This document shows, piece after piece, positions 11,870-24,300 of a stretch of 41,501 nucleotides of DNA (position 1 is the first letter of the stretch; every line of letters begins with the position of its first letter). Position numbers and translations under genes: made by a program. The notes under the pieces are model-generated. The model did not search any database, was not told the origin of the DNA, and saw only the letters and a list, made by a program, of their open reading frames with translations. This stretch comes from Propionibacteriaceae bacterium (GTDB lineage Bacteria; Actinomycetota; Actinomycetes; Propionibacteriales; Propionibacteriaceae): NCBI GenBank assembly GCA_031271975.1, contig JAISUR010000019.1, positions 1 through 41,501 on the forward strand, written 5' to 3'.

Positions 11870-11998
11870 CACCGTCATTCCGGACCCCAGACCGTCATCC
11901 CGGACTCGTTCCGGGATCTGAGCCCCACAAAGTGTCATCGCTTCGCCACCCCCAAACCGTCATCCCGGACTAGTTCCGGGATCTCGGACGAAGTCCGG
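11870..11998. repeat. Intergenic palindromic repeat cluster
   Basis: Two full GTCATCCCGGACT...CCGGGATC modules (11893-11918 and 11958-11983) plus a partial one at 11874, separated by a CCCCACAAAGTGTCATCGC segment that recurs after the FGGY kinase gene (23987). The second module is followed by the hairpin CGGAC-GAA-GTCCG (11985-11997). No gene is seen in this 211-bp gap between ddl and glpABC. Confidence 0.8.
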
Positions 11999-12067: not shown

Positions 12068-12079
12068 TAGGCTGGTTGC
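12068..12079 (+). promoter_or_regulatory. Leaderless-type promoter of the glpABC fusion
   Basis: TAGGCT (12068-12073), six bases, then the GTG start; identical box and spacing to the aminotransferase gene. No Shine-Dalgarno sequence precedes the GTG. Confidence 0.55.
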
Positions 12080-15000
12080 GTGCGCAGTTTGCGGGCAGAA
12101 GTCGTCGTCATCGGCGGCGGGGCCACGGGGGCCGGAATCCTCCGCGACTTGGCGATGCGCGGATATGACGCGCTGCTGGTGGAACGCGCCGACTTGGCCC
12201 AGGGCACCACGGCGCGTTTTCACGGACTGCTGCATTCGGGCGCCCGTTACATCGTTTCCGACCCGGAATCGGCCCGGGAATGCGCGGTTGAGAACAAGAT
12301 CCTGCGGAACATCCACTTCGGCGACGTTGAAGATACCGGGGGCCTGTTTGTGGCCACTCCCGCAGACGACCCGGCATACGCGGCGCAGTTCGTCCAGCAC
12401 GCCGCCGCGGTTGGCGTGCGCGCCACCGAGATTTCCGTTTCCGAAGCCTTGCGCCGCGAGCCGCGTCTGAATCCGGGGATCACGCGCGCGTTCGAGGTGG
12501 CCGACGGCTCCATCGACGGTTGGGCGGTGGCCTGGGGCGCGGCACGCTCCGCGATGGAGTATTCCGGCCGCCTCATGACTTACACCGAGGTCACGGCAAT
12601 CCACACCTCGGGCGGACAGGTGACCTCGGTGAGCTGTGTCGACCGGCGAACCGGCGAAGATCTCCACATCGAAACCGGCTTCGTGATCAACGCCGGCGGT
12701 CCGTGGGCGGGCAGGATCGCCGCCTTGGCCGGGTGTTCGGATGTGGAGGTGGTGCCGGGTCGCGGCATCATGATCGCGATGGCGCACCGGCTGGTGAACA
12801 CGGTCGTGACCCGTTGCGGCTATCCCGGCGACGGCGACCTGGTCGTTCCGGCCCACACAGTGTGCATCATCGGGACCACCGACGTCCGGGCGGCCGATCC
12901 CGATAAACTGCCCATCCCGCCGGGCGAGGTGCAGCAGATGCTGGATGCCGGGGAAGCGCTCATCCCGGGTTTCCGCAAGGCCCGCGCGCTGCATGCCTGG
13001 GCGGGCGCGCGCCCATTGTTGCTGGACCGACGGGTCGCTGACCACGACACCCGGCATATGAGCCGCACCATGGCCATCATCGACCACGCCGCACGAGACG
13101 AACTCAAGGGCTTCTTGACGGTGACCGGCGGCAAACTGACCACCTACCGCCTGATGGCCGAAAAGACGGTGGACCTGTTTTGCGCCCAACGCGGCGAGCA
13201 CCGCGCCTGCCGGACGGCCCGGGAGCACGTTGGCTCCATACTGGCGCGGGGCGATAAACAGGACGCCCTGAGGTGGCTGCATACCCACTCACTGGGCACG
13301 GTCCCGTCCGGCGAAGACAGCATCGGCCCTGACGACCAGATCATCTGCGAATGCGAGTTGATGACCGTCCGCCACTTCATGTGGCCACTGGAGCAAGCCC
13401 CGCAGTCCAGCCTCGACGACCTGCGCCGCCAACTGCGGTTGGGGATGGGCCCTTGCCAGGGCGGTTTTTGCGCCGCCCGGGCCGCTGGCATTTGCGCATC
13501 CACCGGCAAACGCACCGCCGCCGAAGCCAACGCGATGCTGCGGGAGTTCGTCGAACACCGCTGGATCGGCCTGTGGCCCATCTTGTACCAAGACCAACTG
13601 CGCCAGTGGGTCTTGGACGCGTGGCTGCTGACCGGGCTTGGCATGTTCTGGCGGCCCTGGGCCCAAACCCGTCCAGCGGCGCTCGCGGCAGGCGACGCGA
13701 CCCGCGAAGCGCCACTCGAAAAGCGGTCCGGGCTGCGGCGGCTCGTCATCGGGGCGGGGTTGTCCGGCTTGTTCGCGGCGTTGTTGGCGGCACAGGCCGG
13801 AGAACAAGTGACACTGGTGTATCTCGGGGTGGGCGGCCTGCCGCTCTCACCGGGCACCATCGACGTCTTCGCCGGCGAAGACCTCCCCGACGAGCACCCG
13901 TATCGCTTGATCGGCGCCGGCCGCGTGGCTGCCGCCGTCCGCCATTTGGCCGAACTCGTACCCGAGCTACTGGCCGGCGATCCGGCGAGCAACGTCTCAC
14001 TCCCCACCGCGTTGGGCACGCTGCGTCCCACCTGCTTGGCTCCCCAGTCGATGCTGGCCGGGGCAGACCTGTCCACGCCGACGGTGATAGTGGGCTTCAC
14101 CCAGCTCAAGGACTTCAGTGCGGCGCGAACCGCCGGCGCTTTGCAAGCCGCGACCTCGGCCCCAGTGCGACACCTGGTCTTGGACCTGCCGCCACGCCAA
14201 GGTGAAATCGACGCCAATGCCGTCAAGTACGCCCGCGCGTTCGACAAGCCGGCCTTCCAGGAACTCTTCGCCGAAAAGCTGCGCCCGCTGTTGCGGCCCG
14301 GCGAGAAGGTGGGCTTACCCGCTGTCTTGGGACTACGGCCGGGCACCTGGAAAGATACGGCCGAGCGGCTCGGGGCGGCCGTCTTCGAGATTCCGCTCGC
14401 CCCGACGTCGGTCCCGGGACTGCGTCTCCACAACACGCTGCTGGCGATGGTCAAGCAAGTCGGCGTGCGGGTTATCTCTGGCTCGCGGGCCACCGGCCAC
14501 ACCGCGTCGCAAGGCCGCATCGACAGTGTGGACATCGCTGCGGCGGGCGCACCGATCCGGGTCTGGGCCGACGAGGTGATTCTGGCCACGGGCGGCTTTG
14601 AATCCCAGGGGTTGGAAGTGGATTCGTATGGCCGAATGCGCGAAACGAGCTTCGGCTTACCTGTCACCGGCAGCGCCGAAGTCCTGGAGGATTGCTGGGC
14701 AGATCATCCGCTGCTGCGGGCCGGGCTGCGGGTCGATGCCGCCATGCGGCCGGTGGACGGCGATGGGAATCCGGTCTTCGAGAATTTGCGGGCGGTGGGC
14801 GGCCTGTTGGCCGGCGCCAACCGGATCGCGGAGCTTTCCGGGGACGGCATCGCGCTGGCCTCGGCGTGGGCGGCGGTCCATGCCCAGCCCGCCGCGGCGC
14901 AATCCCAAACCGCCGGTGACCGGGCAGCCGTCGCCGACTCGGCTCTCGTCCCGCTCCGGACGGCGGTGGACCAGTGCCTGAAGTGCACGATCTGCGAAGC

Positions 15001-16135
15001 CCACTGCCCCGTTATGGCGGTGACCCCGCTGTTTCCCGGCCCGAAGTTCATCGGCCCGCAGGCGGAGCGGTTCCGGAATCCGGACGTGTGCGAGCCCGAG
15101 TCGGTCAGCTTCTGCTCCGGATGCGGCACGTGCACGCTGGTGTGCCCGCAGGGCGTGCCCGTGGCCGCGCTGAATTCCCGGGCCAAAGCCCGCTACAAGA
15201 CGTCAGGGGGCATGCCGCTGCGGGATCGGCTAATCGGCCGCACGACGCTGATGGGCCAGGTGATGACGCCCATCGCGCCGCTCGCCAACGCGGCTCTGGC
15301 CAACGGCCCGCTCCGCTCGCTCCTGGAGCGGGCCATTGGAGTCCACCGTGATGCCCCCATGCCGCCGGCCCAGTCCCGCACGTTCGGCAGTTGGTGGCAC
15401 AACCACAAGCCGCAAACGTCCGCCAGCCGCGGCCAAGTGGTGTTCTTCCACGGCTGCGCCGGGGGTTACTTCGAGGTGGAAACGTCCATCCGCACCGTAG
15501 AAGTGCTGGAACGCCTCGGCTACGAAGTTCTCGTCCCGAAACAGGGTTGCTGCGGCCTCGCGATGCAGTCGAACGGCCTTTTCGACCAGGCATCGCAGGC
15601 CGTGCGAACCTTGGCCGGACAGTTGACGGCGATTCCCGACGTACCGATCATCTCGGCCTCCGGTTCCTGCACGGGCATGCTCAAACACGAAGCCCGCGAG
15701 ATCATGGGAGTCACCGCCCCCGAAGTCACCGCCGTCGGCAACCGCGTGCGCGACGTCATGCAGTTCTTGCGCGACGTCCACGAAACTGGCGGCCTGCCAC
15801 GCTTATCCCGCATCGACTTGCGCGTTCTGTATCACGCCCCGTGCCAAGTCAAGAACCAAGGCATGGGCCTTCCTGCGCTCGACGTGCTCCGGCTGATCCC
15901 AGGCCTGGAGGTCGCCGAGTCGAACGCCACCTGCTGCGGGATCGCCGGAACGTACGGCATGAAGGCCGAGCTTTATGACATCGCCCAAGCCGTTGGCCAG
16001 CCCCTGTTCGACCAAGCCCAAGGATTCGACCTGGTGGCATGCGACACCGAAACCTGCCGCTGGCAGATTAGGAAGGCGGCGCGCAAGCCGGTCGAGCATC
16101 CGATTTCGCTCGTCCACCAAGCCCTGGGCGGCTAG
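12080..16135 (+). CDS. glpABC: Fused anaerobic glycerol-3-phosphate dehydrogenase GlpA-GlpB-GlpC
   Basis: One uninterrupted 1351-residue reading frame covering all three subunits of the anaerobic sn-glycerol-3-phosphate dehydrogenase, which oxidises glycerol 3-phosphate to dihydroxyacetone phosphate and passes electrons to the quinone pool. Residues 1-~545 are GlpA: FAD site VVVIGGGATGAGILRDLA, then a BFD-type [2Fe-2S] domain with CEC (C423, C425) and CQGGFC (C459, C464). Residues ~552-955 are GlpB: second nucleotide site RLVIGAGLSGLFAALLAAQ. Residues ~960-1351 are GlpC: two 4Fe-4S clusters (C966/C969/C972/C976 and C1012/C1015/C1018/C1022) and two cysteine-rich CCG domains (GCAGG...QGCCG; HAPC...TCCG at 1285-1286). 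In E. coli these are three genes totalling about the same length. No linker-length gap or internal stop is present. GTG start with a leaderless-type promoter. Confidence 0.92.
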   Translation: MRSLRAEVVVIGGGATGAGILRDLAMRGYDALLVERADLAQGTTARFHGLLHSGARYIVSDPESARECAVENKILRNIHFGDVEDTGGLFVATPADDPAYAAQFVQHAAAVGVRATEISVSEALRREPRLNPGITRAFEVADGSIDGWAVAWGAARSAMEYSGRLMTYTEVTAIHTSGGQVTSVSCVDRRTGEDLHIETGFVINAGGPWAGRIAALAGCSDVEVVPGRGIMIAMAHRLVNTVVTRCGYPGDGDLVVPAHTVCIIGTTDVRAADPDKLPIPPGEVQQMLDAGEALIPGFRKARALHAWAGARPLLLDRRVADHDTRHMSRTMAIIDHAARDELKGFLTVTGGKLTTYRLMAEKTVDLFCAQRGEHRACRTAREHVGSILARGDKQDALRWLHTHSLGTVPSGEDSIGPDDQIICECELMTVRHFMWPLEQAPQSSLDDLRRQLRLGMGPCQGGFCAARAAGICASTGKRTAAEANAMLREFVEHRWIGLWPILYQDQLRQWVLDAWLLTGLGMFWRPWAQTRPAALAAGDATREAPLEKRSGLRRLVIGAGLSGLFAALLAAQAGEQVTLVYLGVGGLPLSPGTIDVFAGEDLPDEHPYRLIGAGRVAAAVRHLAELVPELLAGDPASNVSLPTALGTLRPTCLAPQSMLAGADLSTPTVIVGFTQLKDFSAARTAGALQAATSAPVRHLVLDLPPRQGEIDANAVKYARAFDKPAFQELFAEKLRPLLRPGEKVGLPAVLGLRPGTWKDTAERLGAAVFEIPLAPTSVPGLRLHNTLLAMVKQVGVRVISGSRATGHTASQGRIDSVDIAAAGAPIRVWADEVILATGGFESQGLEVDSYGRMRETSFGLPVTGSAEVLEDCWADHPLLRAGLRVDAAMRPVDGDGNPVFENLRAVGGLLAGANRIAELSGDGIALASAWAAVHAQPAAAQSQTAGDRAAVADSALVPLRTAVDQCLKCTICEAHCPVMAVTPLFPGPKFIGPQAERFRNPDVCEPESVSFCSGCGTCTLVCPQGVPVAALNSRAKARYKTSGGMPLRDRLIGRTTLMGQVMTPIAPLANAALANGPLRSLLERAIGVHRDAPMPPAQSRTFGSWWHNHKPQTSASRGQVVFFHGCAGGYFEVETSIRTVEVLERLGYEVLVPKQGCCGLAMQSNGLFDQASQAVRTLAGQLTAIPDVPIISASGSCTGMLKHEAREIMGVTAPEVTAVGNRVRDVMQFLRDVHETGGLPRLSRIDLRVLYHAPCQVKNQGMGLPALDVLRLIPGLEVAESNATCCGIAGTYGMKAELYDIAQAVGQPLFDQAQGFDLVACDTETCRWQIRKAARKPVEHPISLVHQALGG

Positions 16136-16170: not shown

Positions 16171-16950
16171 TCACACCGGCGCCAACGTGTCCGGCGTCTC
16201 GGCCGGTGCCACCGTCACGGTCACAGTCGGCTCAGGCGTCGGCGTGTCCGGAGTCGGTGTCGCCGACGTCGTCTGCGTCGCCTGCGTGGTCGGTGTCGGC
16301 GTCGTCAAGTCCGGCATCGCGAGCGGGAACTGCCCTTTCCAGAGCTTCTTCGCCCGAGAGAGCTTGGTCTTCGAGCAGCCGCCGCGCTGGTAGGACAGGT
16401 ACTTCTTGCCCGCTTTCACCTGCGCCATGCAATCGGCCTGCGCCTCGGACGGCGAAGTGGAAAGCCGCTTGGGCCGCCCGAAAGCCGCCAGCAGCGCGTC
16501 TTGGCGCACCGTGTAGGTGTAGTTCCGGTAGACGAAATTCGCCGTCGCGTGCGCGATCTCGTGGGCGAGCACCTTCTTCAGCTTGTTCTTCGACATACCG
16601 GACCTGATCTCAATGCGCGATGCCCCGTATCCCATCGCGTAGCACAGACCGGTGATGTTCTTGCCCAGAGACTTCTTCAACGTGACCGATGTGATGTGCG
16701 TGTACTTCGCCCAGCTTTTCAACCAGGCGCGCACCCGCTTACGTTCGGTCTTTGTGCCGCCCGTCACCAGAATCTGGGACGTCGGCAGCGCGTCCAAGGT
16801 CGGCACAGCCTGCGCAACTATTCGCTGTGCTACCACTTCAGTTGGAACCGCAGGCACCGCTTCGGCTGCCTGGATTGGCACTGTTCCCGCGATCGGGACA
16901 GACAATGCCACCCCCACCAAAACGGACACAAATGTTCTCTTGATCGCCAT
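16171..16950 (-). CDS. Secreted putative zinc metallopeptidase (HEIAH)
   Basis: 259-residue exported protein. The N-terminus is a signal peptide (KR, hydrophobic stretch to about residue 24, probable cleavage after AxA near 29). The central domain contains VLAHEIAHATANFVYRNY with the zinc-binding HExxH motif (H130, E131, H134) and a downstream SPSEAQADCMAQ in which E169 or D173 could be the third ligand. Two cysteines (C174, C192) may form a disulfide. The last ~50 residues are Thr/Pro-rich (PTPTT..., TPTPDTPTPEPTVTVTV), typical of a wall-spanning or glycosylated tail, with no LPxTG. Family not recognised beyond the motif; the substrate is unknown. ATG is preceded by GGGGG. It converges with glpABC and has an unusual repeat-rich upstream region. 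Confidence 0.75.
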   Translation of the reverse strand: MAIKRTFVSVLVGVALSVPIAGTVPIQAAEAVPAVPTEVVAQRIVAQAVPTLDALPTSQILVTGGTKTERKRVRAWLKSWAKYTHITSVTLKKSLGKNITGLCYAMGYGASRIEIRSGMSKNKLKKVLAHEIAHATANFVYRNYTYTVRQDALLAAFGRPKRLSTSPSEAQADCMAQVKAGKKYLSYQRGGCSKTKLSRAKKLWKGQFPLAMPDLTTPTPTTQATQTTSATPTPDTPTPEPTVTVTVAPAETPDTLAPV

Positions 16951-16980: not shown

Positions 16981-17086
16981 CTACGTAGACTAGTCTCGCT
17001 AGCTACGTAGTTGCAGGGGAATTTCTACGTAAACCGTTTCAGAAAACAGGTTTTCTTTAGGTAAACGTTACGTAAACCGTTACAGA
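16981..17086. repeat. Clustered palindromes and direct repeats upstream of the metallopeptidase gene
   Basis: Two perfect CTACGTAG palindromes (16981-16988, 17003-17010), an 18-base direct repeat TACGTAAACCGTTTCAGA (17026-17043) and TACGTAAACCGTTACAGA (17069-17086; one mismatch), and an inverted repeat GAAAAC-AG-GTTTTC (17042-17055) between them. The second direct repeat overlaps the stop codon of the SorC-type gene. The layout suggests an operator array for the metallopeptidase promoter, possibly bound by the adjacent regulator (inference). Confidence 0.6.
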
Positions 17087-18033
17087 CCGGCCCTGTCGGC
17101 CACCGCGCGGGCGGTGCTCTCGTCGCAGATCAGATCGGTGGCGACCCGCGCCCGCAAGGCGCCCAATATCGCCGCGGCCCGGGCCGGATCCGACACCACG
17201 CACAGGCGGCGCGGGATGCGTTGCAGTTCGGCCGGCGTCAGCCCAGTGGACCGCTCGTTGTAGGGGATATCGGCGTAAGAGCCGTCCTCGCGCAACAGGA
17301 CTGTGCAGATGTCGCCCACCACACCATCGGCGGCGAGCGTGTCGATCTCCTCGGTCGTCAGATAGCCGGCCGAATAGACCCGCGAGGCGATGGACGCGTA
17401 GAAGCTGCCCACGCCGAAGACCGCCACATCGAGCTTGTCGCGCAGGTCGAGCACGTGGCGCACCGAGGTCTCGCGCCACATGGCTTCCCGAGTGGCCGCG
17501 TAATCGAAGAAGGCGGGCACCGGGAAGTGGACGATGGGGGAATCAAACGCGTCGGCGAGCGCCTGCAGCATTTCGCCGACATAGGGGATGCCGAACGATG
17601 TGGCGTTCGCCGAGCCGTTGATCTGCAGGATGGACGAACCCACCAATGGGCGGCGGCGGACGTGTTTGACCACTTGGGAAAGTGTCGCGCCCCACGCGAT
17701 GCCGATGAGTTGGTGGTCTCCCACGGCGTCGGTCAGCAGTTGCCCGCCGAGTTTGGCCACTTGTTCGAGCCGATACGTGTCCGATGTCGATTCCCGAGTG
17801 GACACGAGGTGGACGCGGATCCCGAACGCTTTGGCCAGCGCGGAAGCCAACGGAGATTGCGACCCGACGCGGTCGGCCAAGGAGATGCGGATCAGCCCCG
17901 TGTCCCGCGCCACCTTCAGCAGCCGGGACACCGAGGACCGCGACAGCCTCATGTGGTGGGCGATGGACTCCATCGTCTCGCCCTGGATGTAGTACCGAGT
18001 GGCGGCCTGATACATCTCCTCGTAGCGGTCCAA
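17080..18033 (-). CDS. SorC/DeoR-type sugar-responsive transcriptional regulator
   Basis: 317-residue DNA-binding regulator. Residues ~10-52 form an N-terminal helix-turn-helix (YYIQGETMESIAHHMRLSRSSVSRLLKVA), followed by the SorC sugar-phosphate-binding domain with IGIAWGATLSQVV, a VFGVGSF segment, GDICTVLL and the C-terminal ATDLICDESTARAV. Members of this family usually bind phosphorylated sugars and repress or activate neighbouring catabolic genes. The start is taken as TTG because AGGAG lies six bases upstream and no in-frame ATG or GTG fits. It is encoded between the metallopeptidase and a membrane-protein gene; nearby candidates for regulation are the repeat-rich metallopeptidase promoter and glpABC, but its target is not shown by sequence. 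Confidence 0.87.
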   Translation of the reverse strand: MDRYEEMYQAATRYYIQGETMESIAHHMRLSRSSVSRLLKVARDTGLIRISLADRVGSQSPLASALAKAFGIRVHLVSTRESTSDTYRLEQVAKLGGQLLTDAVGDHQLIGIAWGATLSQVVKHVRRRPLVGSSILQINGSANATSFGIPYVGEMLQALADAFDSPIVHFPVPAFFDYAATREAMWRETSVRHVLDLRDKLDVAVFGVGSFYASIASRVYSAGYLTTEEIDTLAADGVVGDICTVLLREDGSYADIPYNERSTGLTPAELQRIPRRLCVVSDPARAAAILGALRARVATDLICDESTARAVADRAGL

Positions 18034-18111: not shown

Positions 18112-18207
18112 CCCAGCCTCGTCACCCCGCCCCCCAACCACGTCATCCCGGACTCGTTCCGGGGTCCCCGCAAAGTATCGAAGAACTTTGTGGGGTGGGG
18201 TCCGGGG
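18112..18207. repeat. Palindromic repeat with 43-bp unit
   Basis: A GTCATCCCGGACT...CCGGGG module at 18141-18164 joined to one copy of a 43-bp unit (18165-18207). The unit contains an 11-bp stem CCCCGCAAAGT / ACTTTGTGGGG (one G-T pair) with loop ATCGAAGA. The same unit occurs twice in tandem at 24081-24166. It lies between the SorC-type gene and the small membrane-protein gene. Confidence 0.8.
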
Positions 18208-18231: not shown

Positions 18232-18741
18232 ATGACGACCAACAAGACAACCGAGCCGGTGCGCCCGTGGAGCCTGTGGGCGGTGCTGGCGTGCTCGTAC
18301 GCCGCAGTCGCGGCCCTCGGCGTCTCGATCTTCGGCGTCTTTTGGGTCATGGTTCACGACTTCAACGGCTCGTGCCAGCTAGCCGCGATCTTCGCCACCG
18401 AGGTTTACTCGCGCTGGCGGCTGCTGCTGGCTGTGGTCGCGACCCTCACCGCTCTGCTGCCGTCGATTGCCGCAGTCATCAGCGGATACTACGCCTGGGC
18501 CGGCTTTGGTTGGGCGCGCGTGGCCACCTTGATCAGCTTCGCCTTGTCCGGGCTGAGCCTGCTCCTCACCCCGATCGCCTGGGCCGCGTTGCCGCTGACT
18601 GCCGTGGCGGCCGCCCTCGCCTGGGTCCCGGCATCCAATTCGTTCTACCAGCGGTGCGCCGGCGCACGCCGACCTGAACGGGATTTCGGGACCGTGCCCA
18701 ACACCATCTGGTACGGCCCGCTCCCGAAATACAATGTCTGA
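18232..18741 (+). CDS. Small integral membrane protein, unknown
   Basis: 169-residue protein with four predicted membrane helices (about residues 14-41, 63-88, 95-113, 115-132), a short charged N-terminus and a ~35-residue C-terminal cytoplasmic tail ending PNTIWYGPLPKYNV. I do not recognise the family. A longer open frame extends back to 17221 but only as a shadow of the SorC-type gene; the ATG at 18232 has AGAGG just upstream and a TACTCT -10 candidate that would give a very short leader. Its 3' end overlaps the next gene by eight bases, so it is translationally coupled to the PemK/MazF-like protein. Confidence 0.7.
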   Translation: MTTNKTTEPVRPWSLWAVLACSYAAVAALGVSIFGVFWVMVHDFNGSCQLAAIFATEVYSRWRLLLAVVATLTALLPSIAAVISGYYAWAGFGWARVATLISFALSGLSLLLTPIAWAALPLTAVAAALAWVPASNSFYQRCAGARRPERDFGTVPNTIWYGPLPKYNV

Positions 18742-19330
18742 GCGCAACATCGCCTACGAGTTGGGCGAGGCAATCGGCGCCTTGTTCCGCAAGTACCTCG
18801 GGCCAGACGACGCGGAAGAACCTGCTTCCTCCGCCGAGCCCGAGAGTACTTCTCCCGTGCCGGAAGCCAAGGTCACCGCGAAACAGGCGCGAAAACCCAA
18901 GGGCAACGCCGCCCCCAAGAACTCAAACGCCTATCCGGGCGACTACGAGGGAGTGCCACCGCTCAGCTACGCCCCCATCGCGGACGACTTGCCCGATCCA
19001 GGCGAGGTGGTCTGGGCTTGGGTGCCCTTCGAGGAGGACTACACCCAAGGCAAGGACCGCCCGGCGCTCATCGTCGGAAGTGAAGGAGATTGGCTGCTGG
19101 GCTGCATGCTGACCAGCCAGGACCACGACATCGACCAAGCGCAGGAGAACGCCGAAGGCCGCTATTGGGTCGAAGTTGGCACCGGCGAGTGGGACAAGCA
19201 GGGCCGCGTCTCGGAGGTGCGGGTGGACCGCGTGCTGCGCTTCGACAACAGCCACATCCGGCGCATCGGCGGCCGCTTGAGCGAAGACAAGTTCAACCTC
19301 GTGGCCGAAGGCATCCGCCGTTACGCCTAG
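18734..19330 (+). CDS. PemK/MazF-like protein with disordered N-terminus
   Basis: 198-residue protein. Residues 1-~70 are a helix followed by a low-complexity Pro/Ala/Ser/Lys region; residues ~88-198 look like a PemK/MazF (SH3-like barrel) domain, starting PGEVVWAWVPFEEDY and continuing KDRPALIVGSEGDWLLGCMLTS. MazF-type proteins are mRNA interferases, but here no antitoxin gene is adjacent; the partner is instead the overlapping membrane-protein gene. The conserved RPALIV strand is kept, whereas catalytic competence cannot be judged by eye. It may be a non-toxic relative or an unusual toxin whose partner is membrane-bound (inference). The stop is followed by a terminator-like hairpin. Confidence 0.68.
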   Translation: MSERNIAYELGEAIGALFRKYLGPDDAEEPASSAEPESTSPVPEAKVTAKQARKPKGNAAPKNSNAYPGDYEGVPPLSYAPIADDLPDPGEVVWAWVPFEEDYTQGKDRPALIVGSEGDWLLGCMLTSQDHDIDQAQENAEGRYWVEVGTGEWDKQGRVSEVRVDRVLRFDNSHIRRIGGRLSEDKFNLVAEGIRRYA

Positions 19331-20497: not shown

Positions 20498-20598
20498 GTC
20501 ATCCCGGACTTGTTCCGGGATCATGGGACGCAGTCCCATGCACTCCGCAGGGGTGCCCGTCGTGCACCCCCACCTGGTCATCCCGGACTTGTTCCGGT
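20498..20598. repeat. Palindromic repeat cluster upstream of the HNH gene
   Basis: A complete GTCATCCCGGACT...CCGGGATC module (20498-20522), hairpin CATGGGAC-GCA-GTCCCATG (20522-20540), hairpin GGGGTGC...GCACCCC (20550-20570), and a second module starting at 20577 that breaks off after GTTCCGG. The break is followed by the promoter and gene for the HNH endonuclease. Confidence 0.8.
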
Positions 20599-21220: not shown

Positions 21221-21396
21221 GGGCACCCCACCAGGGTCGTCCTGGGCACCCCCACCAGGGGCGTCCTGGGCACCCCCACCACGTCATCCCGGACTTGTTC
21301 CGGGATCTCGGACGTAGTCCGTGTGCCCCATCAGGGGCACCCCTCCGGGGTGCATGGGACTGCGTCCCAAGATCCCGGATCAAAGTCCGGGATGAC
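21221..21396. repeat. Tandem and palindromic repeat cluster downstream of the HNH gene
   Basis: Begins with a 23/24-bp direct repeat (GGGCACCCCCACCAGGG plus CGTCCT) at 21221-21243 and 21244-21267 and a partial third copy. Next is a complete GTCATCCCGGACT...CCGGGATC module (21282-21307), hairpins CGGAC-GTA-GTCCG (21309-21321), GCACCCC-TCC-GGGGTGC (21337-21353) and GGGAC-TGC-GTCCC (21356-21368), and finally an inverted copy of the main module (21371-21396). No gene is visible in the 290-bp gap between the HNH gene and purC. Confidence 0.8.
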
Positions 21397-22392: not shown

Positions 22393-23979
22393 ATGGACGC
22401 AAGCCAAGCAATCATCTCCGGGCAGGCGGTGCTCGGCATCGAATTGGGTTCCACCAGGATCAAGGCCGTGCTTGTCGGGCCCGACCACGAGGTGTTGGCC
22501 ACAGGCGGGTCGGAGTGGGAGAACGAGTTCGTGGACCGGCTGTGGACTTATTCCCTGGACGCTGTCTGGGCCGGGCTGCGCGAAGCCTATGCGGAGGTCA
22601 CTGCCGACGTAGCCACCCGCTATGGAGTGGAGTTGGCCAGCGTGAAGGCGATGGGATTCTCCGCCATGATGCACGGCTACCTGGCGTTTGACGCCGCCGG
22701 CCAGCTACTCGTGCCCTTCCGCACCTGGCGCAACACGAACACCGGCGCCGCCAGCGCGGAACTGACCGCGGCGTTGGGCTACAACATCCCGCTGCGCTGG
22801 TCGGTGGCGCACCTGTACCAAGCGATCCTCGACAAGGAGGAGCACCTGCCGCGGCTCGATTTCTTCACGACATTGGCCGGCTATGTGCATTGGCAACTCA
22901 CCGGCGAGAAGGTACTGGGCGTGGGCGACGCCTCGGGCATGTTCCCCATCGATCCCGCCACTGGAGACTGGGACGCCGATCGTTTGGCGAAATTCCAACA
23001 ACTCGCCGCTGATAAGGGATTTTCGTGCGATGCTCGCGCGCTGCTGCCTCGCGTCGTGCCAGCCGGGGCCGCTGCCGGCACCCTCACCGAAGCAGGTGCG
23101 CGGCTGCTTGATCCCACCGGCAAACTGGTCGCCGGCATCCCGCTGGCCCCGCCCGAAGGCGACGCCGGAACGGGCATGGTGGCCACGAACTCCATCGCCC
23201 CGCGCACCGGAAACGTGAGCGCAGGCACGTCCATCTTCGCCATGGTCGTGCTGGAACGCCCGCTGCAGGCCGTGCACGAGGAACTGGACTTGGTCACCAC
23301 GCCGGTCGGCGATCTGGTGGCCATGGTGCACTGCAACAACGGTGCTTCCGAACTGGGCACATGGGCTGGTGTTTTCGGCGAGTTCGCCGCCGCGTTGGGC
23401 ACGCCCGCGGCGCCAGGCAAGGTGTTTGACGCGTTGTTCCTGGCCTCGCTGGACGGTGAGGCGGATTGCGGTGGTCTGCTGGCGTACAACTATCTGTCCG
23501 GCGAGCCGATTGCCCGGCTGCGGGAGGGCCGGCCGCTGTTCACCCGCACGCCGGATTCCGAGTTCAACCTGGCGAACTTCATGCGCGCCCAGCTTTTCGC
23601 CACCTTTGCCACGCTGCGGCTCGGCATGGACATTCTGCTGAAAGAAGAACATGCGGCCGTTGACGCCATGTTTGCCCACGGTGGCGTGTTCAAGACGAAG
23701 GGTGTCGCCCAGCGCTACCTCGCGGCCGCGTTCAATGCCCCGGTGACGGTCGGCGAGACCGCCGGCGAAGGCGGTGCTTGGGGCATGGCCGTCCTCAGCG
23801 CGTATCTGGCTTATGGGCAGGGAACGACCTTGGCCGACTACCTGAACCAGCGCGTGTTCGCCGCGGCGGAAACCGAGACGCTGGCGCCGGATCCAGCCGA
23901 TGTGGCTGGTTTCGACGCATACGTCGACAAGTATGTGGCCGGCCTTGCGATAGAAGCCGCCGCTGTGGAAGCACTCTAA
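22393..23979 (+). CDS. FGGY-family carbohydrate kinase (ribulokinase/xylulokinase-like)
   Basis: 528-residue sugar kinase of the FGGY family, which phosphorylates a pentulose or related sugar with ATP. The N-terminal ATPase motif is LGIELGSTRIKAVLVG, followed by MGFSAMMHGYLAFD, then GVGDASGMFPID and GTGMVATNSIAPRTGNVSAGTS in the first actin-like half, and a C-terminal half with NLANFMRAQLFATFATLR, FAHGGVFKTKGVAQRYLAAA and TAGEGGAWGMAVLSAY. The strings resemble the AraB-like/xylulokinase-like group found in Bacteroides and clostridial arabinose operons (from memory). Where most family members have a W-x-D-x-R motif, this protein has FRTWRNTNTG, which may be normal for its subgroup. No isomerase, epimerase or transporter gene lies next to it, so the sugar is uncertain. 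Confidence 0.85.
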   Translation: MDASQAIISGQAVLGIELGSTRIKAVLVGPDHEVLATGGSEWENEFVDRLWTYSLDAVWAGLREAYAEVTADVATRYGVELASVKAMGFSAMMHGYLAFDAAGQLLVPFRTWRNTNTGAASAELTAALGYNIPLRWSVAHLYQAILDKEEHLPRLDFFTTLAGYVHWQLTGEKVLGVGDASGMFPIDPATGDWDADRLAKFQQLAADKGFSCDARALLPRVVPAGAAAGTLTEAGARLLDPTGKLVAGIPLAPPEGDAGTGMVATNSIAPRTGNVSAGTSIFAMVVLERPLQAVHEELDLVTTPVGDLVAMVHCNNGASELGTWAGVFGEFAAALGTPAAPGKVFDALFLASLDGEADCGGLLAYNYLSGEPIARLREGRPLFTRTPDSEFNLANFMRAQLFATFATLRLGMDILLKEEHAAVDAMFAHGGVFKTKGVAQRYLAAAFNAPVTVGETAGEGGAWGMAVLSAYLAYGQGTTLADYLNQRVFAAAETETLAPDPADVAGFDAYVDKYVAGLAIEAAAVEAL

Positions 23980-24300
23980 GTCTTTACCCCACAAAGTGTC
24001 ATCGCTTCGCTGCGGTACTTTGCAGGGACCCCTCATTGCTACCAAAGCCCCAACACCGTCATCCCGGACTCGTTCCGGGGTCCCCGCAAAGTATCGAAGA
24101 ACTTTGTGGGGTGGGGTCCGGGGTCCCCGCAAAGTATCGAAGAACTTTGTGGGGTGGGGTCCGGGGTGCCCGCAAAGTATCGAAGGGCTTTTTGGGCCCT
24201 TTCAGCAGCGGCAGGCTTGGCCTGCGCGCCACCTTCGGCAGGATCGCCCCCTCATCGGAGTGAGCGTTCGCTCACTCGTCACAATTATCGACTTAGAGAT
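23980..24300. repeat. Repeat-filled gap with tandem 43-bp units
   Basis: The 321-bp gap between the kinase gene and parB has no gene. It holds a CCCCACAAAGTGTCATCGC segment (23987), a GTCATCCCGGACT...CCGGGG module (24057-24080), two identical 43-bp units in tandem (24081-24123 and 24124-24166) and a third partial unit (24167-24186). Each unit carries the CCCCGCAAAGT / ACTTTGTGGGG stem. AAGGGC...GCCCTT (24184-24203 region) and a perfect inverted repeat GAGTGAGCG-TT-CGCTCACTC (24258-24277) follow, the latter about 25 bp past the parB stop and possibly a terminator for parB. Confidence 0.8.

Follow-up and report, generated by a model that had tools for sequence, protein, structure and literature searches.

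Whether the three subunits of the anaerobic glycerol-3-phosphate (G3P) dehydrogenase, GlpA, GlpB and GlpC, can be encoded as one single polypeptide is the question raised by a locus in a draft genome of the family Propionibacteriaceae (assembly GCA_031271975.1; 2.70 Mb in 49 contigs). The stretch of DNA analyzed, called the window in the following, comprises positions 1 to 41,501 of contig JAISUR010000019.1. An initial annotation had described all three subunits in one frame of 1351 residues. As far as one assembly shows, this three-way fusion is confirmed: at the DNA level GlpABC is not encoded as three separate polypeptides, since a single frame of 1351 codons extends from a GTG start to a TAG stop and matches curated models in the order A-B-C. 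We consider it highly probable that this is a real, intact and lineage-specific glpA-glpB-glpC fusion with one start, probably leaderless, and most likely working as the known enzyme.

The modules were assigned with NCBIfam models. The GlpA part (amino acids (aa) 7-519) scores 620.6 bits with TIGR03377 (cut-off 552.8), covering model positions 1-520 of 530, and the GlpC part (aa 961-1350) reaches 454.3 bits with NF008369 (cut-off 278) and 293.7 bits with TIGR03379 (cut-off 279.9). Between them, aa 555-940 score 331.1 bits with the GlpB model NF003724 (cut-off 327); the remaining GlpB models listed stay below their cut-offs, including TIGR03378 with 136.5 against 174.15. This second module is matched by GlpB and FAD_binding_2 models, with Pyr_redox_2 confined to aa 549-581, and the C-terminal pyridine nucleotide-disulfide oxidoreductase module of the Giardia/Eggerthella type is absent. 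The highest 19-residue hydropathy (1.88) is found at aa 555, the flavin-binding start of GlpB.

The annotated BFD, 4Fe-4S and CCG motifs are indeed kept, all near-invariant cysteines being present: C423, C425, C459 and C464 of the BFD-type site in GlpA, 966/969/972/976 and 1012/1015/1018/1022 of the two 4Fe-4S sites in GlpC, and 1126, 1157, 1158 and 1197 as well as 1255, 1285, 1286, 1321 and 1326 of its CCG domains. These positions are Cys in 107/107 (all four in GlpA) or 106/106 aligned relatives, and 1321 in 105/106. Three columns with a majority of Cys lack it in the window, namely 199 (81/107), 205 (67/107) and 1179 (57/107). Pfam did not report Fer2_BFD in the 1351-aa protein at an E-value of 0.001, and the BFD site is therefore assigned from its cysteines and TIGR03377. 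Which residues of the fused protein bind which cofactor is presumed here, as is the FMN site of GlpB named in the initial annotation. Near-invariant columns, in which at least 98% of the 105 unfused rows share the same residue, number 299, of which 283 are kept in the window; the 16 departures comprise 9/147 in A, 4/47 in B and 3/105 in C. Judged by its sequence, the fused enzyme would be chemically ordinary.

In relatives, glpA, glpB and glpC follow each other in this order with little or no gap. By a loose criterion for a Shine-Dalgarno (SD)-like word, 105 of 114 separate A-B pairs carry such a word before the nearby start, and 87 overlap by 4 nucleotides (nt); for the 108 separate B-C pairs the numbers are 97 and 60. 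Because genes with a 4-nt overlap are located in different frames, a change of the stop codon alone would leave them unfused. In the window, the usual GlpA tail is missing beyond the conserved DAW at the A-B junction, as is the usual FAGHE-type GlpC leader ahead of DQC at the B-C junction. No ATG, GTG or TTG is present at aa 523-560 or 920-962, where relatives start glpB and glpC, positions 13560-13800 and 14850-15010 are free of SD-like words, and the other two frames at both junctions contain neither the tail nor the overlap of relatives. Since the stop, start and SD word of relatives are thus absent from every frame, a single-base error is unlikely. Third-position GC amounts to 0.79 in both linkers versus 0.82-0.84 in the three modules. 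A repeat origin of these linkers is not supported, as they are not repeated in the genome: when the best 40 of 105 candidates were scored, 13560-15010 gave, apart from itself, a single weak hit of 37 bases (E-value 0.006), inside the GlpB part. The subunit ratio of 1:1:1 expected by the initial annotation follows, provided that the chain is uncleaved, from the lack of a start or SD word where relatives begin glpB and glpC.

The three-way fusion is rare, and a search of its phylogenetic range, which had been proposed with the annotation, found it in one genome among those searched. DNA of 121 loci was inspected (120 fetched and the window), of which 108, the window included, hold A, B and C and 13 are incomplete; two of the 108 have C cut short (L148, L162) and one genome (G016) is counted twice. 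The three genes are separate in 105 loci (three from outside the family), A and B are fused in one (L027, genome G215), B and C in another (L045, genome G020), and all three in the window. Left out were some second copies and genomes with GlpA fragmentary or not listed (e.g. G001, G003, G062, G099, G132, G185). Among the matches listed for 198 family genomes, in which fused matches rank first and three candidates were scored per genome, the window is the only A-B-C match. Samples of the phylum (30/396 genomes matching at an E-value of 1e-60, own genome included) and of the class (3/394) contained no other match spanning the three modules, and in another family of the phylum 10/17 genomes match, none of them spanning modules; for loci outside the family, gene borders were verified in the DNA of L186-L188 only. 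Other phyla were covered only via plasmids, five archaeal loci and five sequence handles, and fusions elsewhere are possible. At one archaeal locus (G616), the GlpB-like match lies within a 433-aa frame. Of 72,556 plasmid records searched, 911 match, and in 23 of these one place covers at least 80%; in the 25 records listed the matches are split into between two and five pieces. With an identity of only about 35%, such splitting does not alone exclude a plasmid fusion; most annotated records name separate genes. Apparent A-C frames of about 1400 aa in 17 genomes, with GlpB nested in another frame, were rejected as a reporting artefact, the DNA having separate frames (L052, L053, L054, L059, L061, L062 and eleven more).

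The two partial fusions differ from the window in their linkers, which are dispersed repeats read in frame. The B-C linker of G020 (L045, 4190-4380) has 20 other matches in its own genome at an E-value of 0.1, and no inverted repeat was found in this linker region; the A-B linker of G215 (L027, 2480-2630) has 62 among the best 40 of 98 candidates scored, at the same E-value, and contains two copies of a 29-nt direct repeat. As both genomes are fragmented drafts, mis-joining at repeats is possible. Repeats read in frame are known from the Rickettsia palindromic elements, according to passages of PMC10969869; those resemble the linkers in this respect, but there the repeat lies within genes, whereas in G020 and G215 it is located between two genes and joins them, and the linkers of the window contain no such repeat. 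As a separate observation on the glpB-glpC junction of unfused relatives, L061 carries a repeat there that by eye looks palindromic, and in L185 a gap of about 1.3 kb precedes glpC. We tentatively propose, as a possibility somewhat short of even chances, that fusion within the glpABC operon recurs in this part of the family: two of the fused forms (A-B in G215, B-C in G020) have repeat linkers, and in the third, that of the window, none of the three SD sites is left and a leaderless start has replaced the coupled operon of three genes.

The start of the fused gene differs from that of its relatives as well. The window shares a CATAGGCTG block with G029 and G023, in which it is found 31 and 28 nt before the GTG, with an SD-like word between, whereas in the window the TAGGCT box is separated from the GTG by 6 nt and no SD is present. 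Of 119 loci with A, 96 glpA starts were examined; the window is alone among them in having TANNNT 5-8 nt upstream, and for 87 of the 95 others an SD-like word lies no more than 20 nt away. The simplest reading suggests that about two dozen leader bases were lost, which would result in a leaderless mRNA and a single cistron. Leaderless mRNAs are described as prevalent in Propionibacterium acnes, with GUG starts in 29%, and the -10 consensus is given as TANNNT (passages of PMC3848588). The genome of the window has not lost SDs, since SD-like words precede some other genes of the window by a simple script and ddl by eye, although by this measure most window genes lack one.

Taken together, the following course of events is proposed. 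The ancestral state would have been that of the relatives: three genes, mostly with short overlaps, in which glpB and glpC are each preceded by an SD-like word. In the lineage of the window, new in-frame linkers would have taken the place of both junctions, and glpA would have lost its leader together with the SD. The result would be one cistron that has a single start and probably a leaderless mRNA. If expressed and active as a single chain, as the sequence leads us to expect, the GlpA part would most likely oxidize G3P with FAD as in the known enzyme, and electrons would pass through GlpB to the iron-sulfur centers of GlpC and on to menaquinone; by homology, this G3P-to-quinone function would be located at the membrane. 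Glycerol kinase, which would supply the G3P, is encoded on another contig (TIGR01311, 728.9 bits, cut-off 590.35). At an E-value of 0.001 the genome contains one other match, a GlpC-like stretch on a different contig, and no second GlpA/GlpD-like match.

In the tree of Glp sequences, the window groups with G020, G029 and G023 in a four-row clade (100). G029 has glpA with its own stop, followed by separate glpB and glpC, and in G023 glpB and glpC are separate and the final glpA codons lie in a different frame from glpB; because these nearest relatives have separate genes, the A-B-C fusion is probably young. A stepwise origin, in which B and C were fused in an ancestor of the window and G020 and A joined later in the window, is compatible with our preferred explanation and appears rather doubtful, at about one chance in a few. 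G020 belongs to the same clade, and a quick GyrB tree of 28 genomes joins it with the window, a grouping not rejected by the 17-genome GyrB tree (p-AU 0.608), which decides nothing on the order within the clade. Conversely, the Glp tree places G020 with G029 and G023 (95/96) and narrowly rejects window+G020 (p-AU 0.046), window+G029+G023 being not rejected (0.053), and the B-C linkers of window and G020 differ in length and sequence. We are unsure of the branching order inside this clade.

The fused sequences have also diverged strongly, as would be expected of a relaxed or decaying enzyme whose function has become less important, so that a fusion is tolerated. In a tree of 108 rows (median tip 0.094), the four longest tips include all three fused rows (L045 0.57, window 0.50, L027 0.44; the fourth, L170 with 0.45, has separate genes). 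Tip lengths in the 17-genome trees (Glp/GyrB) are 0.58/0.036 for the window, 0.66/0.128 for G020, 0.112/0.022 for G029 and 0.122/0.047 for G023, corresponding to ratios of 16, 5.1, 5.2 and 2.6. The long Glp tip at a short GyrB tip indicates that Glp of the window evolved unusually fast; the ratio of G020 is not above that of G029. The fused rows G215 and G020 depart at 13 of the 299 columns each, whereas unfused rows of the same wider clade depart at 1 to 10 of nearly the same columns (L185 10, L144 7, L113 5, L054 4, L061 3, L109 1); G029 and G023, partly cut by contig ends, were left out of this comparison. Against decay stand the 1351 codons without stop or frameshift, the conserved cysteines and the near-invariant columns kept, and we regard it as improbable.

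Similarly improbable is that the one frame yields several proteins, the subunits being released at the linkers by proteolysis or by translation that starts internally: a GTG at aa 963 lies just ahead of the first GlpC cysteine, and both linkers have a pLDDT below 50 in the predicted models, which is a weak hint as other stretches do too, but SD-like words are lacking, as are start codons where relatives begin glpB and glpC. That an assembly or sequencing artefact joined the three genes is very unlikely, for although the genome is a draft, an indel of 1 nt within a 4-nt overlap could bring two frames together and REP-like repeats able to mislead assemblers lie nearby, failure would have been needed at two junctions, neither of which retains the tail, stop, start or SD of relatives in any frame, and the linkers are unique in the genome and continue the third-position GC.

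Several points weigh against the explanation of an intact, leaderless fusion working as the known enzyme. The fusion is known from one draft assembly alone, and its GlpB part exceeds the cut-off with one model only, by a narrow margin. A sigma-70 scan gave no promoter upstream of glpABC, and an SD-like word precedes only 6 of 18 genes in the window (simple script, mechanical starts), so that the missing SD of glpABC is nothing exceptional for this genome. The long Glp tip may mean that the constraint has changed. AlphaFold models of the fused chain are weak, with a mean pLDDT of 61.4 and a pTM of 0.48 for A+B and 69.5 and 0.45 for B+C (12 and 13 alignment rows). With the weak B+C model, Foldseek listed a LutA-LutB model, EtfD and flavoprotein dehydrogenases on top; one search of the PDB with the whole chain gave no GlpB among its sequence matches and no GlpC structure.

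The coordinates of the fused gene and of features in its vicinity are compiled in Table 1. The right-hand part of the window carries the origin region with parB, parA, dnaA, dnaN, a RecF-type protein, gyrB and gyrA. The distance between glp and gyrB is about 20 kb in the window and 19-49 kb in all nine other genomes of the genus that were examined and have both on one contig, and this conserved spacing marks the glp genes of the window as the inherited copy. A homologue of the PF04198 regulator (64-69% identity) is located within 0.6 kb upstream of glpA and on its strand in 8 of 12 genomes of the genus inspected and 3.4 kb upstream in G011; in G020, G023 and G029 none was found on the contigs, and close relatives may already have lost the link between regulator and glpA. 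In G023, glpC is head-on to ddl, whereas glpABC in the window has the direction of ddl; the block was therefore inverted in one of the two. Other genes nearby are a 259-aa frame without Pfam match between glpABC and the regulator (16171-16950, minus strand), a 198-aa frame with a PemK/MazF-like domain at 89-196 (18734-19330; PF02452) and an FGGY-family kinase near the regulator (22393-23979). The REP-like element GTCATNCCGGACTNGTTCCGGGATCT has six matches with at most 3 mismatches, all on the plus strand (11894-11919, 11959-11984, 18142-18167, 20498-20523, 21283-21308, 24058-24083), and none in 100 shuffles. The linkers are no closer to the repeats upstream of glpABC than their codon-shuffled copies, of which 284 and 272 of 500 reach the score.

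Table 1. Features of the fused glpABC gene and its surroundings in the window.
Feature	Position	Strand	Basis
Fused glpABC gene, 1351 aa	12080..16135	+	Frame and NCBIfam models; sole such match in own genome
GlpA module, aa 1-520: FAD/DAO domain and BFD-type CxC...CxxxxC site	12080..13639	+	TIGR03377, PF01266, C423/425/459/464
A-B linker, aa 521-552, in place of relatives' GlpA tail, stop, glpB SD and start	13640..13735	+	
GlpB module, aa 553-940, flavin-binding fold	13736..14899	+	NF003724 above cut-off, PF00890
B-C linker, aa 941-960, in place of relatives' glpB stop, glpC SD and start	14900..14959	+	
GlpC module, aa 961-1351: two 4Fe-4S sites, two CCG domains	14960..16132	+	NF008369, TIGR03379, PF13183, PF02754 (twice)
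TAGGCT, -10-like (TANNNT) box, 6 nt before GTG	12068..12073	+	Common to two relatives
Two REP-like repeats just upstream of glpABC	11894..11984	+	
PF04198 (sugar-binding) regulator past the glpABC 3′-end, opposite strand	17080..18033	-	Pfam

New here is a one-chain version of the well-known GlpABC enzyme, which is also an example of operon genes that have merged into one. A natural single chain with fixed stoichiometry could ease the expression and structure solution of the GlpABC complex, and separate, half-fused and fully fused forms among relatives offer a route to test how an operon turns into one gene and what effect this has on the evolutionary rate.

The initial annotation knew of no characterized three-way fusion, and no report of a GlpA-GlpB-GlpC fusion was recognized in the literature searched, which excluded most subscription journals and was represented by parts of texts; fused G3P dehydrogenases with other partners have been published. 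According to passages of PMC11962113, GlpABC reduces menaquinone, and the enzymes of E. coli and Haloferax described there share all three modules, their order and their cysteine motifs with the window; in Propionibacterium freudenreichii, glpA, glpB and glpC are three genes (passages of PMC4437456). In contrast to these known forms, the window encodes one chain instead of three, with new linkers and no internal starts at the sites that relatives use, and lacks the glpA leader and SD. The FAD-dependent G3P dehydrogenases of Giardia, Entamoeba, Spironucleus and Eggerthella also combine a GlpA-type module with a second redox module in one chain, as stated in parts of PMC4450592 and PMC10480196, but the partner there is a domain of the pyridine nucleotide-disulfide oxidoreductase type and not GlpB plus GlpC. 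Likewise, GlpTk-NOX-MOX of Thermococcus is a three-part G3P dehydrogenase, said in passages of PMC11962113 to be fused in protists, and differs from the fusion described here in its other partner proteins.

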